Assembly (NCBI GenBank): GCA_947487905.1
Contig: CANLAV010000013.1
Location: forward strand, 1-33,116
Direction: 5' to 3'
Length of the DNA: 33,116 nucleotides
From: Bacteroidota bacterium
GTDB taxonomy: Bacteria; Bacteroidota; Bacteroidia; B-17B0; Aurantibacillaceae
Below the pieces are notes generated by a model, which had not been told where the DNA came from, did not search any database, and saw nothing but the letters and a program-made list of their open reading frames with translations. Positions 2,147 to 9,313 of the stretch are shown in pieces; positions within the stretch are counted from its first letter, which is position 1, and each line of letters opens with the position of its first letter. The translations under genes were made by a program, and so were the position numbers.

Positions 2147-5100
2147 TTAAAAATCTGTTGATAACGATAAATAAGTCATGCCTTTTTGTTTTGTTTTATC
2201 ATCAACCCCCCAAGCAAAATCTAAACGAATAAAATAACCAACTAAACGCGAACGTAAGCCAAAGCCATATCCGCCAACAATGGGTTCCTTTTGATTGTAT
2301 ATCGTTAAGGTAATTGGATTTCCGCCAAACACATTTTTATTCAAAACATTCTCATCACTGTAAGGATTTTTTCCATACCATGCCATACCAATATCAGCAA
2401 AACCAATGATTTGAAAATTATTAATAAAATCAGATTTGATGGGTGTATTTAGTAAGTATTTAAATATAGGACAGCGTAATTCACTATTGTAAACAACAAA
2501 ATTATTTCCATTGCGTGTATTTTGTTTGAAGCCTCTTAAATTAGTTGCCAACGTTTGGAATTGGTATTGGGTCGGATTCACAATATTAATAGTTTGATCA
2601 AATTTCGGATTCACCCAATTATCAACGCCTCCTAAATAATAAATTAATTTATCCGTTCCTAAAGACGTTGCGCCAGCAAGACGATTACACCAAATTAAAT
2701 CTCTATGTAATTTTTTATAATTTCGAAAATCAAAACCAAGTGTCACTAAATCGTGTTGCTCTGATTTAATTAATCTCCAATACTCTGCCCACATTTTGAA
2801 ACGTGTCCCGTTATATAAATTCAATCCACGTTTTCTTGAATTATCAAAAATGTATTCCAATTTTGCTCCACCGTAATTATCATAAGCATGAGGTTTTGCT
2901 AAACTCACATCACTTACTGATGCAAAAACTGTTCTGTCATTGCGAAATAATAATGAAAATTTAGTAGCAGACACTTCACTGAATGGTAACTTCCAAGTAT
3001 AGCGTGCATCATGAGTTTGTACTTTAGAAATGCCGGAAAAACCATTTACTTTTAAAAATGATTGGCGGTGCAATACAAGTTGTCGATCTATTTTATAAAT
3101 TCTATTTTCCCAACTTAACAAATATTCATTATCTAATGATCCCGCAATTCTAAATCCTGCAACGATTCGTTTATCTTCAAACAAATCACTTAATCCAACT
3201 TTAAACAAAGCGTTTAATCCAGGGTTTAAATAAATAGGACTACCGCCGCCTGTAAATCTTTGGTAATTAGTTGCAAGAAAGGAGTTGTCTAATTGGGAAA
3301 CAATTTGATCTGTTTTAAAACTGGTGTAATAATTTTGTTGGATAGGAAAACGAAGTTCCTCAGTAAATGCTTGCTTTTGATTTTTAGGGCTATTCTCTTT
3401 AATTAAAAAACCATTTTGTTTGAATTGTTTTACTGGTTCATTATTAATGATAGGCCCTGAATTATCCGTTTTTTTATCAGCACCGATGATATAATTATCA
3501 ATATCTACACCTTGATTGGTGGTTGGTTCAGGATCTGTTTTTTGAGGCGTATATAAATCTTCATTTCTAATGGGATTTACTATTTTTAATTTATCAGGAT
3601 CGGATAATGGTGATTTTGGTGTACCTCTAAACCAAGTATCAGACAATTTTTGTGAAAGTAAAACGCCTGAATTTATTAAATCACACACTGTCAATTTTTC
3701 TTGATTATTTTCAATGGTAATTTCAGCAAGCTTTGTAAATGAAGAATTAATATGATACTCTTCACAATTTTTCAGATTATTACTAATGGCTTTTGTCCTA
3801 TAAAAAAAACGGTAATGCTCAACCGTGTCAACAAAAGAAATTGCACTATCAATGACACCAACAAATCTATTGTAAATGCCATTAGAATCACTTAAAAACG
3901 AAACAACGCCATTAGCGTATTCTTGTGGCTTGATTTCATTGATATCGGGAGTATGAGTGATTCTATTTAAGTAAGTCGATTTGGTTTGAGTATTATAAAC
4001 AAACAAATCATTGTTTCTAGAAAATTTAAAGTTCAATTTAGCGTCTTCATTTCCTTTAATCGTATCATGCGATCTATTAGATTCAAATACAATGCCTTTT
4101 GAATTATTAATAAAAATAGGGTTGTTATCATCCCAAGCATCATTTGTAATTTGTTCTATGCCACCGGCATTTAATGAGAAAATAAAAACATCCGATTGAC
4201 CTTTCCCTTTTTTTACAGCACTCATCACTAAACGCTTACCATCATGAGAAAAAGCAAAACTATTTATTTTTTCAAATCCAGTAATTGGTCGTTTAAAATG
4301 TTCTTTTGTTTCCGTATCATAGGTATGAATTTTCAACGTGTTTTTATACTCATAAATCATAGCAATGACGGTATTATTAGGATGCCATGCAATTAATGGG
4401 TAACTATTATCATCCAATCTTTCAAGTTTTGGAAATAATTTTATGAGGCGTTTAGTCTTTTTTTCACCAATGGTATTCAACCAAACTTTATATTGACCTA
4501 ATTCGCTTGTTGCATGAATTATTTTTTGACCATCACCACTCACTTTTAATTGATAATAATGCCTTGATTTTTTTTGCTTTTGCAAAACAGAAATAAGTGG
4601 TGAATTTTTTCGAGCAGTATCTTTAAAATCAAAATACCGTTTAGATAATAAGGTTGAAAAATCGAACGTTAAATTTTCAATGGACGTGCCTAACACATAA
4701 ACAAAAGCGTTATTGGCATTCCGACTCACTTTAGTCATATACAATAAACTTGGGATAACAGCTTCGCCATAGGTGTCTGCCACATAATACCACATGGCGT
4801 GTCCAGCCAATACTGCTTCTTTTCCTGTTAATTTATTAAACTTATAAAAACGATCATTTAAAACAGCATCCATGACACTATTATCTATGCTAGTGTTCCA
4901 TCCTTCAGAGATATAGGCGATTAAACCATTTTTAAACCAATCTGGTAATACTAATAAGGTTGAATTCCGCACTACATCACGTGTTCGCCCACCATACATC
5001 ATTTTATCAATAATTAATTCAGCTAAGGCCGCTCTAATCTGTTTATCTAAATCATAATGCGAGCCTGTGAAATATAAAAATATTTTATCTCCAATAATAC

Positions 5101-5452
5101 GTGTTACACCTCCTATGTTTCCATTTTCCTCGGTTGCTAATCCAATATTAGATTGTTTAAAATCATTTTGATTATTATAGACTATGACATCTAATTTGTC
5201 TTCTAACTGAAAATCGAGGCGTTTCTCAATAACAGGTAATTGTCTGTTGACAGATGTTGCAGCATAACGTGCAATTTCTTGTCCACCTTCGTATAAATAA
5301 ACTCTAAATCGTTCGAAATCAAAATACGTCCAATCAAAGGTTTGGTACTGCATGCGATTTTTTCCAAAATCAAGTTGCGAGCCATAATAAAATTGCGAAA
5401 AAAGTACTTTTGTAAAAAAGACACATAAAATTATAACAAGATTTTTTTTCAC
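2147..5452 (-). CDS. Large outer-membrane protein: pseudo-peptidase MA-like, TolB-type propeller, C-terminal beta-barrel
   Basis: I place the start at GTG 5452 (1101 residues). It puts a signal peptide (VKKNLVIILCVFFTKVLFSQ) at the N-terminus and avoids the 39-base overlap with the divergent hydrolase gene that the first ATG (5542) would cause. Three parts can be seen. Residues about 20-270 resemble the peptidase MA/gluzincin layout, but the HExxH position reads AELIID (144-149) and the downstream EGL position reads NGL in DWFKNGL, so it is probably not a protease. Residues about 310-560 hold TolB/PD40-type propeller blades (QITNDAWDDNNPIF, VFESNRS). The region from about 720 is rich in amphipathic strands, with a BamA/TamA-like end (GFGLRSRLVGYFIRLDFAWG) and terminal Phe typical of outer-membrane barrels. 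The function is unknown. Confidence 0.72.
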   Translation of the reverse strand: MKKNLVIILCVFFTKVLFSQFYYGSQLDFGKNRMQYQTFDWTYFDFERFRVYLYEGGQEIARYAATSVNRQLPVIEKRLDFQLEDKLDVIVYNNQNDFKQSNIGLATEENGNIGGVTRIIGDKIFLYFTGSHYDLDKQIRAALAELIIDKMMYGGRTRDVVRNSTLLVLPDWFKNGLIAYISEGWNTSIDNSVMDAVLNDRFYKFNKLTGKEAVLAGHAMWYYVADTYGEAVIPSLLYMTKVSRNANNAFVYVLGTSIENLTFDFSTLLSKRYFDFKDTARKNSPLISVLQKQKKSRHYYQLKVSGDGQKIIHATSELGQYKVWLNTIGEKKTKRLIKLFPKLERLDDNSYPLIAWHPNNTVIAMIYEYKNTLKIHTYDTETKEHFKRPITGFEKINSFAFSHDGKRLVMSAVKKGKGQSDVFIFSLNAGGIEQITNDAWDDNNPIFINNSKGIVFESNRSHDTIKGNEDAKLNFKFSRNNDLFVYNTQTKSTYLNRITHTPDINEIKPQEYANGVVSFLSDSNGIYNRFVGVIDSAISFVDTVEHYRFFYRTKAISNNLKNCEEYHINSSFTKLAEITIENNQEKLTVCDLINSGVLLSQKLSDTWFRGTPKSPLSDPDKLKIVNPIRNEDLYTPQKTDPEPTTNQGVDIDNYIIGADKKTDNSGPIINNEPVKQFKQNGFLIKENSPKNQKQAFTEELRFPIQQNYYTSFKTDQIVSQLDNSFLATNYQRFTGGGSPIYLNPGLNALFKVGLSDLFEDKRIVAGFRIAGSLDNEYLLSWENRIYKIDRQLVLHRQSFLKVNGFSGISKVQTHDARYTWKLPFSEVSATKFSLLFRNDRTVFASVSDVSLAKPHAYDNYGGAKLEYIFDNSRKRGLNLYNGTRFKMWAEYWRLIKSEQHDLVTLGFDFRNYKKLHRDLIWCNRLAGATSLGTDKLIYYLGGVDNWVNPKFDQTINIVNPTQYQFQTLATNLRGFKQNTRNGNNFVVYNSELRCPIFKYLLNTPIKSDFINNFQIIGFADIGMAWYGKNPYSDENVLNKNVFGGNPITLTIYNQKEPIVGGYGFGLRSRLVGYFIRLDFAWGVDDKTKQKGMTYLSLSTDF

Positions 5453-5503: not shown

Positions 5504-6142
5504 ATGATAACAATTTGCAGTTTTGTATTCGGTCCATTTCAAGAAAACACCTATGTATTATACGATGAAACAAAGGAATGTGTGATAATAGACCCGGGAA
5601 ATAATACAGCAAGTGAGGATAAAAAAATGAGCGATTTTATATCTGAAAACAACTTAATTGTCAAGCGATTAATTTTAACACATGGGCACATTGATCATAT
5701 CAATGGAAATAAATATGTATTTGATACATATGGTCATTTACCAGAAGTTCATCAAAGTGATGTGTATTTTATTGAAAAACATTTGTCAAGTTCAACGATG
5801 TATGGCTTACCGGCACAACAAAGTCCAATGCCCGAAACGTATTTAAAAGAAGGTGATGTGATTGAATTTGGTAATTCGAAACTACAAACTATACACACTC
5901 CTGGCCATTCTCCTGGAAGTATTACGTTCTATCATGTAGAAGAAAAATTTATGATTGCAGGTGATGTTTTATTTTATGGCAGCATTGGTAGAACAGATTT
6001 ACCGATGGGCAATATGGATGATCTCATTTCATCAATCAAAAACAAACTATTTAACTTAGGCGATGATATGAAAGTGTATAATGGACACGGGCAATCAACC
6101 ACAATTGGATTTGAAAAATTACATAATCCTTTTCTAATTTAA
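5504..6142 (+). CDS. Metallo-beta-lactamase-fold hydrolase, glyoxalase II-like
   Basis: This 212-residue cytosolic protein of the glyoxalase II/YcbL-like branch carries the complete dinuclear metal site: THGHIDH (His60, His62, Asp64, His65), the HTPGHSPGS histidine, the AGDVLFYGSIGRTDLP aspartate, and the final NGHGQST histidine. Close relatives hydrolyse thioesters such as S-lactoylglutathione-type substrates, but the short length, without the glyoxalase II C-terminal substrate domain, leaves the true substrate open. It is divergent from the propeller/barrel gene across about 50 bases and ends 4 bases from the convergent heptose-kinase gene. Confidence 0.9.
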   Translation: MITICSFVFGPFQENTYVLYDETKECVIIDPGNNTASEDKKMSDFISENNLIVKRLILTHGHIDHINGNKYVFDTYGHLPEVHQSDVYFIEKHLSSSTMYGLPAQQSPMPETYLKEGDVIEFGNSKLQTIHTPGHSPGSITFYHVEEKFMIAGDVLFYGSIGRTDLPMGNMDDLISSIKNKLFNLGDDMKVYNGHGQSTTIGFEKLHNPFLI

Positions 6143-6146
6143 TAAA

Positions 6147-7172
6147 CTACAAACTGGTCCACGTTGTAAGACCTTGTTGAGTGAATTTAAAAGATTGTAC
6201 ATTGCCTCCAAGATTTTCTATGGCTTTGGCTACTTTAATTTTTGTAACAGCAGGGCAATAAAAAAACATAAATCCACCACCACCAGCGCCAGATATTTTA
6301 CCGCCTGATGCCCCATTTTTTAAAGCCGTTTCATAAACGGTATCTATTAATGTGTTACTGATGGAATGAGCAATTTGTTTTTTGTTTGTCCAACCAAAAT
6401 GTAAAATTTCTCCAATATTTTTTAATTCGCCACGCAATAAACTATCTTTCATTTGATGAGCTTGCTCTTTTAAATGATGCGTAGCCTCAACCGATTTTTC
6501 ATTATTATCTTTTACATTTTTCACTTGCTCGTTAATGATGGTAGCTGAAAGCCTTTGTGTAGCAGTAAAATAAAGTAATAAATTAAATTCTAATTCGTAC
6601 AACACTTCATCTTTTAATTGCAATGGATTTACAATGACTTTATCATTTGCTAAAAACTCCATAAAATTAATACCACCAAAAGTTGCCGCGTATTGATCTT
6701 GTTTACCGCCACTCATGTTTAAATCTTTTCGTTCGATTTCATAAGCTAAATGTGCAATATCATATTTACCTAAAGGTAATTTAAACCATTCTACAAAAGC
6801 ACCAATTAATGAAACAACGATGGTTGAAGATGTTCCTAGGCCTGAACCTTGGGGCGCTTCGATATAGGATGTTAATCGAAATGAAAGAGCTGGCAAATTA
6901 AATTGTTTTACGATACGATTGTATACACCAATAAATAATTCAAATCCTTCAACTAAGGCTAGTTCTTTTTCTGAATTCAGAGTTATGCATTTACCAGTGC
7001 CATCAATACAAAATTCAATGGTATTATTCGTTAATGGCTCTAAACTCGCGTAAGCGTATAAATCAATGGTTGCATTTAAAATAGCGCCTCCAAAAATATC
7101 ACTATAAGGAGAAACATCTGTTCCGCCACCTGCTAAACCAATCCTTAATGGAGCTTTACTTCTAATTATCAT
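6147..7172 (-). CDS. hddA: GHMP-family sugar kinase, D-glycero-D-manno-heptose 7-phosphate kinase-like
   Basis: This 341-residue GHMP kinase has all expected motifs: the N-terminal APLRIGLAGGGTDVSPY (residues 7-23), the ATP loop PQGSGLGTSS (107-116), the GGKQDQYAATFGGINF segment typical of the HddA branch, and the C-terminal glycine-rich GASGGKISGAGGGG loop. HddA phosphorylates D-glycero-alpha-D-manno-heptose 7-phosphate at C1 on the way to GDP-heptose, used in S-layer or surface glycans. No gmhA, gmhB or hddC gene lies in the window, so the exact sugar is inferred from family resemblance; fucokinase-like or other GHMP sugar kinases are alternatives. It is the last gene of the minus-strand run from 11219, 25 bases after the methyltransferase. 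Confidence 0.83.
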   Translation of the reverse strand: MIIRSKAPLRIGLAGGGTDVSPYSDIFGGAILNATIDLYAYASLEPLTNNTIEFCIDGTGKCITLNSEKELALVEGFELFIGVYNRIVKQFNLPALSFRLTSYIEAPQGSGLGTSSTIVVSLIGAFVEWFKLPLGKYDIAHLAYEIERKDLNMSGGKQDQYAATFGGINFMEFLANDKVIVNPLQLKDEVLYELEFNLLLYFTATQRLSATIINEQVKNVKDNNEKSVEATHHLKEQAHQMKDSLLRGELKNIGEILHFGWTNKKQIAHSISNTLIDTVYETALKNGASGGKISGAGGGGFMFFYCPAVTKIKVAKAIENLGGNVQSFKFTQQGLTTWTSL

Positions 7173-8020: not shown

Positions 8021-9313
8021 TTATTTACGCATTGAATTTAATCTTTTTACGGCAATTAATTGATCGTAATAAGTGCCTCGTTGTCGATGATAAACATAAA
8101 TACTATAATCATTCTCCGTTTCCCAATGGTTTCCTTCTGTCAAAGTTTGATCGCCTCCTTTTTTATGATCTGATAAGAAGACATAGCTGTAGTTATAATA
8201 ACCTTGTTTCAAATATAATTTTCCTTCGTAACCTAATTTTTTATAATTATAATTGAGTCGATTGGTATGATTCGTTTTCCATTCCGTTAATTTCCCTAAT
8301 ACATAAAAATTACCTTCACTCTGAGCATTATCGTAAGGAAAAAAGAAGTGCACCCAAGCGTAATCAGCTTCAATATCAGGATTTCCAACCATGTCTTTAT
8401 TTTTAATTAAATAACTTCCATTGATATCGTTATAAAAAGAATAATTTTTAAATGTTTTTAATTCATCCGTTTTTAATTCGATGTGATACTTTGAAACACT
8501 ATCTCTATATATAAGATTTACTCTTTCTGTATAAGTTCTTAATGAGCGGGTATCAAAAAATCTAAACTCATTTCCTCCATTAAAGGTCGATTTATCATCT
8601 AACGAATAAGTTAATTTTGTTGGTTCTACAAATGTTGGTTTAATATCATTGATGGCATTATCCCATCGATTATTTTGCGTCATCACAATTTTTAAATCGG
8701 TAAATGGATTTGTTATTTCGTATCCTGAGTTTACAAGTGAAAAATCAATATGTTGTTTTTCATATTGTTCATCATTCCCAATTGCTTGATTGAGGGTAGA
8801 TAAAACAGTGACTTTGTTTTCATAAATCATAAAACGTTTAGTCAGTACTAGTTTTTCTTTATCATTATCTTGATAAACATAAACGATGTAATTTCCTGAT
8901 TTAGTAAAATTAATATTAGCCTGTGGAAAGGTGATGGAATAATGCGTGTACTTTTGAATGGTATTCGTTGAAAACGAAAAGTTTAAAATATTTGCTTCAA
9001 AAAATCCATTTATAAATTCTGAAGGCATTAAGTTAGAAGGTTCCCAATTGGCTGTACAATGTTCGAAACTCAAAGAATAATTTTTTTTATCAAAATCCAA
9101 ATCATCAAAACTTAATTCAAGCACGTTGCCACTATTTAATTCTAAAACCGCAGGGTTAGCATCAAAGGAAGATTCATGCAGCTGCACAGATAAAATAGAT
9201 GGCTGATAAGTCCAATCAGAATAATGCATGACGTTATCATTAACATAATCTGCTTGTGCAAATGTGTTAGATACAAATACAAAACATAAATATATTAGGT
9301 AATAGAATTTCAT
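8021..9313 (-). CDS. Type IX secretion system Plug-family protein (DUF5103)
   Basis: This 430-residue protein has a signal peptide (MKFYYLIYLCFVFVSNTFAQ). It matches the DUF5103 pattern: an N-terminal beta domain (DWTYQPSILSVQL, LELSFDDLDFDKKNYSLSFEHC), a central WDNAINDIKP region, NGGNEFRFFD followed by SLRTYTERV, then a C-terminal carbohydrate-binding-module-like part (NFYVLGKLTEW, LYLKQGYYNYSYV) ending RGTYYDQLIAVKRLNS. The founding member is the Plug of Flavobacterium johnsoniae, which closes the periplasmic side of the SprA translocon when no cargo is bound. It implies a type IX secretion system elsewhere in the genome; no other T9SS gene is in this window. The gene is 45 bases downstream of the GIN lipoprotein. 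Confidence 0.85.
   Translation of the reverse strand: MKFYYLIYLCFVFVSNTFAQADYVNDNVMHYSDWTYQPSILSVQLHESSFDANPAVLELNSGNVLELSFDDLDFDKKNYSLSFEHCTANWEPSNLMPSEFINGFFEANILNFSFSTNTIQKYTHYSITFPQANINFTKSGNYIVYVYQDNDKEKLVLTKRFMIYENKVTVLSTLNQAIGNDEQYEKQHIDFSLVNSGYEITNPFTDLKIVMTQNNRWDNAINDIKPTFVEPTKLTYSLDDKSTFNGGNEFRFFDTRSLRTYTERVNLIYRDSVSKYHIELKTDELKTFKNYSFYNDINGSYLIKNKDMVGNPDIEADYAWVHFFFPYDNAQSEGNFYVLGKLTEWKTNHTNRLNYNYKKLGYEGKLYLKQGYYNYSYVFLSDHKKGGDQTLTEGNHWETENDYSIYVYHRQRGTYYDQLIAVKRLNSMRK

Follow-up and report, generated by a model that had tools for sequence, protein, structure and literature searches.

Why should an outer-membrane barrel protein keep a domain with the fold of a peptidase but none of the residues needed for catalysis? 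The question is raised by a gene in a 33,116-nucleotide stretch of DNA from a Bacteroidota bacterium (assembly GCA_947487905.1, contig CANLAV010000013.1, positions 1 to 33,116; the whole stretch is hereafter called the window). The open reading frame lies on the minus strand at 2147-5452, with a GTG start codon at 5450-5452 and a stop codon ending at 2147, and encodes 1101 residues; most homologs start with Met at the matching position, where the window gene has GTG. The same frame and coordinates had been given in an initial annotation made from the DNA sequence alone, which described an exported pseudo-peptidase joined through a propeller to an outer-membrane barrel. The analysis described here indicates that the protein is an Omp85-superfamily outer-membrane barrel in which a gluzincin-fold domain and a TolB-like propeller take the place of POTRA repeats. 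Judged from sequence comparison, the N-terminal domain is a maintained pseudo-peptidase, real and well supported, within a known but uncharacterized class of Omp85 proteins.

Architecture of the Protein

Reading from the N terminus, a signal peptide is followed by the gluzincin-fold domain and the TolB-like propeller; a variable linker then leads to the C-terminal Omp85 (BamA-type) barrel, whose last residue is Phe. The signal peptide (5396-5452, minus strand, as are all parts of the gene) begins at the GTG codon and is type I-like; its cleavage site was placed by eye and is presumed, and no lipobox Cys is found there. The family identities of the N-terminal domain and the barrel could be recognized only through relatives. 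The window protein's own Pfam matches are mainly weak and of propeller type, PD40 among them. No POTRA family occurs among these matches, nor among the 25 of 32 families listed in a further family scan. A full-length model, built from an alignment of 17 rows, has a mean predicted local distance difference test score (pLDDT) of 48, is confident only to about window position 3960, and contains no usable barrel.

The N-terminal domain (4589-5395) was modeled more successfully alone with 16 relatives, giving a mean pLDDT of 77 and a predicted template modeling score of 0.78. In a Foldseek search with this model the peptidase domains of clostridial collagenases scored best (E = 2.6e-5), followed by M1 and M61 peptidases. 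The 50 rows listed by VIA-align include collagenases, the M30 peptidase lugdulysin, and M1 aminopeptidases, with Z scores of 14.6-12.4 over 202-237 residues and a root mean square deviation (rmsd) of 3.4-4.9. The collagenase match has Z 14.6 (224 residues, rmsd 3.4), lugdulysin 14.2, and the M1 aminopeptidases about 13. The collagenases and the M1, M61, and M30 peptidases are gluzincins; one further row, 7edx_B, is a TFIID entry, presumably the aminopeptidase-like TAF2. A sequence profile of the domain found no counterpart among solved structures (best E 0.2). The Pfam family PF13485 (Peptidase_MA_2), on the other hand, is matched at E ≤ 0.1 by 36 of 51 aligned family members (best 3.7e-18), the window sequence not being among them. 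Since 24 of these 51 are types with an intact zinc site, at least 12 dead ones also match PF13485.

The propeller (3680-4588, C-terminal limit approximate) has TolB as its best match both by sequence (1.2e-12) and by fold (Z 17.5, 181 residues, rmsd 3.8). The NCBIfam equivalog model for TolB is matched only in part, with 47.6 bits against a cut-off of 343.15, and the window protein is fused to a barrel rather than being a free periplasmic two-domain protein.

The barrel (2150-3346) was searched as a profile of 51 rows, which hit a solved POTRA-domain protein (E = 4.2e-10), BamA chains (2.8e-8 and weaker), and, with a probability of 95.7, an Omp85 protein encoded in the window's own genome. PF01103 (Omp85) is found at E ≤ 0.1 in 21 of 51 members, which do not include the window protein. 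Two short motifs are strictly kept in the 30 aligned members: LRGF (2528-2539), with invariant R and G, and FADIG (2387-2401), with invariant F, D, and G. These are the counterparts of the Omp85 VRGF/Y and FxDxG motifs, respectively. The three parts first recognized from the DNA, a peptidase MA-like domain, a TolB-type (PD40) propeller, and a BamA-like barrel ending in Phe, are thus each borne out, the first by the model, the two fold searches, and PF13485 in relatives, the second by sequence and fold matches, and the third by the profile matches to BamA and by PF01103 in relatives.

Loss of the Catalytic Residues

The counterpart of the HExxH motif in the window protein is A142-A143-L144-A145-E146 (5018-5032; frame numbered from 5455), which stands opposite H-E-L-V-H, so that neither His remains and the catalytic Glu is missing as well. 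This register was adopted because the alignment to 26 intact relatives is free of gaps through the site and is anchored by a conserved MYGG right after it. The initial annotation had correctly recognized the loss of both His but had placed it at AELIID; this register is three residues off and was rejected in favor of the earlier AALAE. It had also read NGL in place of EGL as loss of the downstream Glu, and indeed Asn176 (4928-4930, same numbering) occupies the position of the third zinc ligand.

The loss is not peculiar to the window. Neither His of HExxH is present in any of the 75 sequences of its subfamily (window included), whereas the motif and the downstream Glu are all present in the remaining 26 homologs. 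At the third-ligand position the intact rows have Glu throughout (26 of 26), and the 75 lost rows have N, D, Q, K, E, S, and others. Glu occurs there in 10 of the 75, none of them with a His, and the ligand is lost in the other 65.

The residues around the site were compared in 57 lost and 19 intact rows, with the closest genus members and the paralogs left out. In mature numbering the zinc-site residues are H122, E123, H126, and E156. Four further residues, E160, Y192, Y195, and R196, are invariant in the 19 intact orthologs, and each is found in fewer than one-fifth of the 57 dead rows. In contrast, W22, G111, G135, P151, W153, G157, Y209, and G210 are scaffold positions common to dead and intact rows. 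The alignment therefore indicates that the catalytic residues are lost together as a set while the scaffold stays.

Distribution and Phylogeny of Dead and Intact Forms

The 75 lost rows were taken from genomes whose label places them in the window's class or closer to the window, and from named Bacteroidota records that cluster with these. Of the 26 intact rows, 19 are main copies and 5 are paralogous-branch copies from other classes of the phylum (24 in all); the other two, L119 and L121, belong to a paralogous branch within the class. Dropped before the counts were the window's own copies (L001, L071), a propeller-only record (L002), L073 (the same gene as L068), identical duplicates between two collections, L064 (frame interrupted by a stop), L065 (truncated at a contig end), and L118 (too short, replaced by L164).

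When 80 further N-terminal stretches of main copies from other-class genomes were inspected, every one was intact, bringing the main copies with HExxH and Glu to 99 of 99; two other-class genomes with a long match, G141 and G200, are not included in this figure. The paralogous branch with intact HExxH inside the window's class spans two families and holds L119, L121, L164, and L165, the last two also carrying the motif and being counted apart from the 26. One genome, G214, has both a dead copy (L077) and an intact paralog (L121). In the window's own genome there is no full-length second copy and no PF13485 protein above cut-off; a second full-length copy or an active paralog there was ruled out by the genome search and the PF13485 scan. 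Whether the loss of HExxH is general across Bacteroidota had been left as a question by the initial annotation. It is general in the window's subfamily but not in the phylum, the genomes checked from other classes and the in-class paralogous branch being intact.

The family itself is widespread. The window protein was matched in 58 of 60 genomes (own genome included, E ≤ 0.001), with G013 and G052 by a propeller-only match, and a 30-row profile found a match in 187 of 198 genomes of the phylum, the weakest matches being partial. A search of plasmids returned one weak match only, in Salinibacter ruber.

In a tree of the whole protein with 84 sequences (58 lost, 26 intact), a single branch with support 99 separates the two states; shuffling the labels on this tree gave 22 state changes on average, against the one actual change. 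A tree of the barrel alone, with 73 sequences (49 lost, 24 intact), shows the same single split, again with support 99, and the split is therefore not driven by the active-site columns. These trees hold 84 and 73 of the 101 sequences, were made by a quick method with SH-aLRT (Shimodaira-Hasegawa-like approximate likelihood ratio test) support and no bootstrap, and have a midpoint root only. L069 and L070 stand on long branches, and in the barrel tree long branches meet inside the intact side. The intact state is taken to be ancestral, the change being a loss and not a gain, because HExxH is the rule in the peptidase superfamily. Apparently, then, the zinc site was lost in the ancestor of the window's class, most simply once.

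Purifying Selection on the Dead Domain

In six lost-type pairs with measurable synonymous divergence (dS), the ratio of nonsynonymous to synonymous change (dN/dS) is 0.024-0.044 in the dead domain, 0.005-0.106 in the propeller, and 0.004-0.054 in the barrel. The values come from a simple Nei-Gojobori script and the comparisons are mostly saturated: 7 of 15 pairs gave all four parts, one of the 7 being intact-type, and three of the six lost-type pairs share the same three sequences at a dS of 1.3-2.9, which is close to saturation. Purifying selection acts on the dead domain as on the neighboring parts, and the domain is therefore maintained, not decaying; local decay of the active site was rejected on these values. 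The initial annotation had foreseen that homologs with an intact HExxH might show this copy to be merely decayed. Intact relatives do exist, but they lie on a separate branch, and with the dead domain under purifying selection mere decay is rejected.

A Short Motif in the Linker

The fourth part measured, roughly 160 codons running up to the barrel and including some of the propeller's end, exceeds the other three in dN/dS in each of the seven measurable pairs. The charged linker itself (3347-3679, N-terminal limit approximate) is variable in the alignment. Within it lies a motif, VDIDNYII in the window protein (3485-3508), which follows the family pattern hydrophobic-D/N-hydrophobic or T-x-N/D/E-Y-x-F/I/L and is typified in intact relatives by VDFRNYVF. 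The pattern occurs within residues 561-760 of 65 of 101 sequences, where 0.41 would be expected from shuffles; it was composed after the alignment had been viewed, and the contrast with the shuffles is descriptive. It is found in both states (55 of 75 lost, 10 of 26 intact). That it occurs on either side of the deepest split nevertheless suggests a binding element or an ordered strand.

Neighboring Genes

Twenty-two bases downstream, on the same strand, lies a gene for a half-length TauE/SafE permease of 128 residues (1738-2124), which covers positions 126-237 of the 237 in PF01925. The initial annotation had named it as a half-size partner. The half length is correct; the partnership holds mainly within the window's family, with TauE present in 23 of the 29 loci L003-L031 (28 from that family, one from another) and in only 1 of the 22 loci L072-L093 elsewhere in the class, and as a general association it was rejected. 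More widely kept is the divergent upstream neighbor, a metallo-β-lactamase-fold hydrolase (5504-6142, plus strand) that is GloB-like below the cut-off of that model. Such a gene, adjacent or about 1.2 kb off, was found in 46 of 70 class genomes, a lower bound with flanks of mostly 1.5-3 kb, and in 0 of 27 intact-type loci. The divergent pair may be kept because the two genes share a promoter region and not because they share a function; a promoter scan of the region between the genes gave 3 sites, with 1.7 (standard deviation 1.4) expected.

The window also holds, at 8021-9313, a gene for the plug protein of the type IX secretion system, 2.6 kb from the gene described here. In the related record L041 the plug gene is about as near. 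In f43, a family of another class, no more than 0.5 kb separates the plug gene from the intact homolog in 20 of 22 genomes. Distances in other-class genomes were compared by hand: this adjacency was seen in 0 of 58 intact-type genomes of other families, and 18 of the 80 tested had no plug match. Within the class, 77 genomes were compared, and the two genes lie within 10 kb of each other in the window's own genome alone, although split contigs can hide linkage. A general linkage to the plug gene was accordingly rejected.

Two further genes are recorded in the window: one for the lipoprotein chaperone LolA (327-986), adjoining a shikimate dehydrogenase gene, and one for a sugar kinase (6147-7172) with a strong match, below cut-off (398.5 of 600 bits), to D-glycero-D-manno-heptose 7-phosphate kinase.

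Possible Role of the Protein

By analogy with known systems, we favor, with a probability of roughly 0.4, a role as the non-cutting, substrate-holding, BepA- and BamB-like part of a protein for outer-membrane assembly or quality control. Very probably the ancestor shared with the phylum's other classes was a zinc peptidase, active and tethered to the membrane; its zinc site would then have been lost in the line leading to the window's class while the domain was retained. The N-terminal domain and the propeller would lie in the periplasm beneath the barrel, as for the N-terminal parts of Omp85 proteins. There the former substrate cleft could grip stretches of outer-membrane proteins or lipoproteins that are unfolded or misfolded, without cutting them, the propeller could act as a docking platform, like BamB and TolB, and the barrel would take part in insertion or release. 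The protein would then resemble a fusion of BepA and BamB with a barrel of BamA type, and would hold and triage substrates instead of cleaving them. A zinc peptidase acting with the β-barrel assembly machinery (BAM) has a precedent in BepA (PMC8423444). From the intact copies polypeptide substrates are predicted, and the dead copies suggest that holding substrates may be sufficient.

Several observations weigh against this role. The results fit a purely structural cleft as well as a chaperone-like one. The pLDDT of the full-length model is below 50 over most of the barrel, too weak to show closure with 16 strands, and in the close pair L022-L023 the dN/dS of the dead domain (0.029) exceeds that of the barrel (0.004). 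Of the 198 phylum genomes, 11 gave no match; without exception these belong to the window's class, have a completeness rating of 100%, and are divided among families f20 (one), f22 (two), and f27 (eight). The protein is therefore not required for outer-membrane assembly as such. The remaining f27 genomes give only weak matches (best 1e-14), and in one class genome, G048, left out of the 75, the reading frame is broken by a stop. The accessible parts of three recent papers on Bacteroidota BAM and TAM (translocation and assembly module) describe no propeller-peptidase subunit, and the propeller protein that is reported in one of them, BamI, is a lipoprotein at the surface.

We regard as doubtful a wider version of the same idea, in which the phylum has a lineage of single-chain machines for outer-membrane assembly and triage, each combining a peptidase, a docking propeller, and an Omp85 barrel, and in which the protease became a non-cutting substrate receptor at the origin of the window's class. 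In this version the conserved linker motif (x-D-x-x-N-Y-x-F) could serve as an intrinsic strand or peptide, with the seam of the barrel or a partner as its docking site.

The propeller points to another possibility, which we consider unlikely: that the protein tethers the envelope, its propeller binding a peptidoglycan-binding protein of Pal/OmpA type and its dead domain binding cell-wall peptides uncut, and so replaces part of Tol-Pal. TolB is the nearest propeller by both sequence and fold, and a 2025 study derives TolB from OMP-TolB-like proteins and proposes PorE as a tether between outer membrane and wall in Bacteroidetes, as stated in the sections available (PMC12204202). However, no wall-binding family is found among the Pfam matches of the window protein, and an Omp85 barrel would be unnecessary for tethering.

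Quite improbable is a function as an accessory factor of the type IX secretion system. The close spacing to the plug gene in f43, in the window, and in L041 argues for it, but it was not seen in the 58 intact-type genomes of other families or, with split contigs as a possible mask, in the other class genomes; some genomes have no plug match, and in the class f22 and f27 include genomes with a plug gene and no full-length copy of this protein. Still less probable is a decoy or regulator that competes or assembles with an active HExxH paralog where a genome has both. Pseudo-proteases acting in these ways are known in general, and at least one class genome, G214, offers such a pair; since no active paralog was found in the window's genome, this cannot be the role there. 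A relict with no role, its peptidase domain decaying, is scarcely credible, for although the ligands and the catalytic Glu are gone and the G048 frame is broken, the domain has a low dN/dS and a fold predicted to be intact, and 75 aligned sequences from throughout the class retain it (the G048 frame and one cut frame not being in the set).

The contrast between intact and dead copies makes the role testable and adds a candidate player to outer-membrane assembly in a phylum whose BAM complex was reported as unusual only in 2025.

Comparison with Known Systems

BepA is a periplasmic zinc peptidase of the BAM machine of E. coli that, in the available part of its description, promotes maturation of LptD or leads to its degradation (PMC8423444). 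The likeness to the window protein is that of a zinc peptidase acting on the assembly of outer-membrane proteins; BepA differs in being a separate and active protein. With the PF13485 and gluzincin peptidases (M1, M9, M30, M61) the N-terminal domain shares its fold and scaffold residues, and its intact relatives have HExxH...E as well. The window's clade differs in having lost both His throughout and the third ligand in most members. BamA and TamL share homology of the Omp85 barrel, and the window protein has a peptidase fold and a propeller instead of their POTRA repeats.

Proteins with an outer-membrane barrel and a periplasmic TolB-like propeller, often annotated as TolB, are known as OMP-TolB-like proteins and have been proposed as the origin of TolB (PMC12204202). 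In the text available, the domain beside the propeller is described as a Rossmann fold, unlike the gluzincin fold of the window protein, and neither a peptidase domain nor HExxH, gluzincin, or metalloprotease is mentioned. Literature searches listed no paper reporting the peptidase domain, or its loss, in its title or the opening of its abstract; they covered long hit lists in part and hardly extended to subscription literature.

The closest precedent is the WD40-Omp85 subfamily defined by Heinz and Lithgow (2014; PMC4104836), whose TolB-like propeller, joined to an Omp85 barrel without POTRA, was likened to a BamA-BamB fusion. The window protein has the same N-terminal propeller and likewise lacks POTRA, and from the description its family is likely to be this subfamily. 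As far as that article was available, it mentions no peptidase domain or active-site state for the subfamily (the word peptidase occurs 0 times in the main text), and what it calls the Metallo subfamily is a separate group with a different defining domain, PF00149. WD40/TolB-Omp85 fusions are therefore already known, and what is new, as far as searched, is the peptidase domain, its class-wide inactivation, and the conserved short linker motif. The fusion of propeller and Omp85 barrel was catalogued in 2014 without a function; with its peptidase domain intact in the other-class genomes checked and dead in the window's class, it forms a natural experiment, and the existence of active and dead lineages provides a clear experimental handle on the function of this class of Omp85 proteins.

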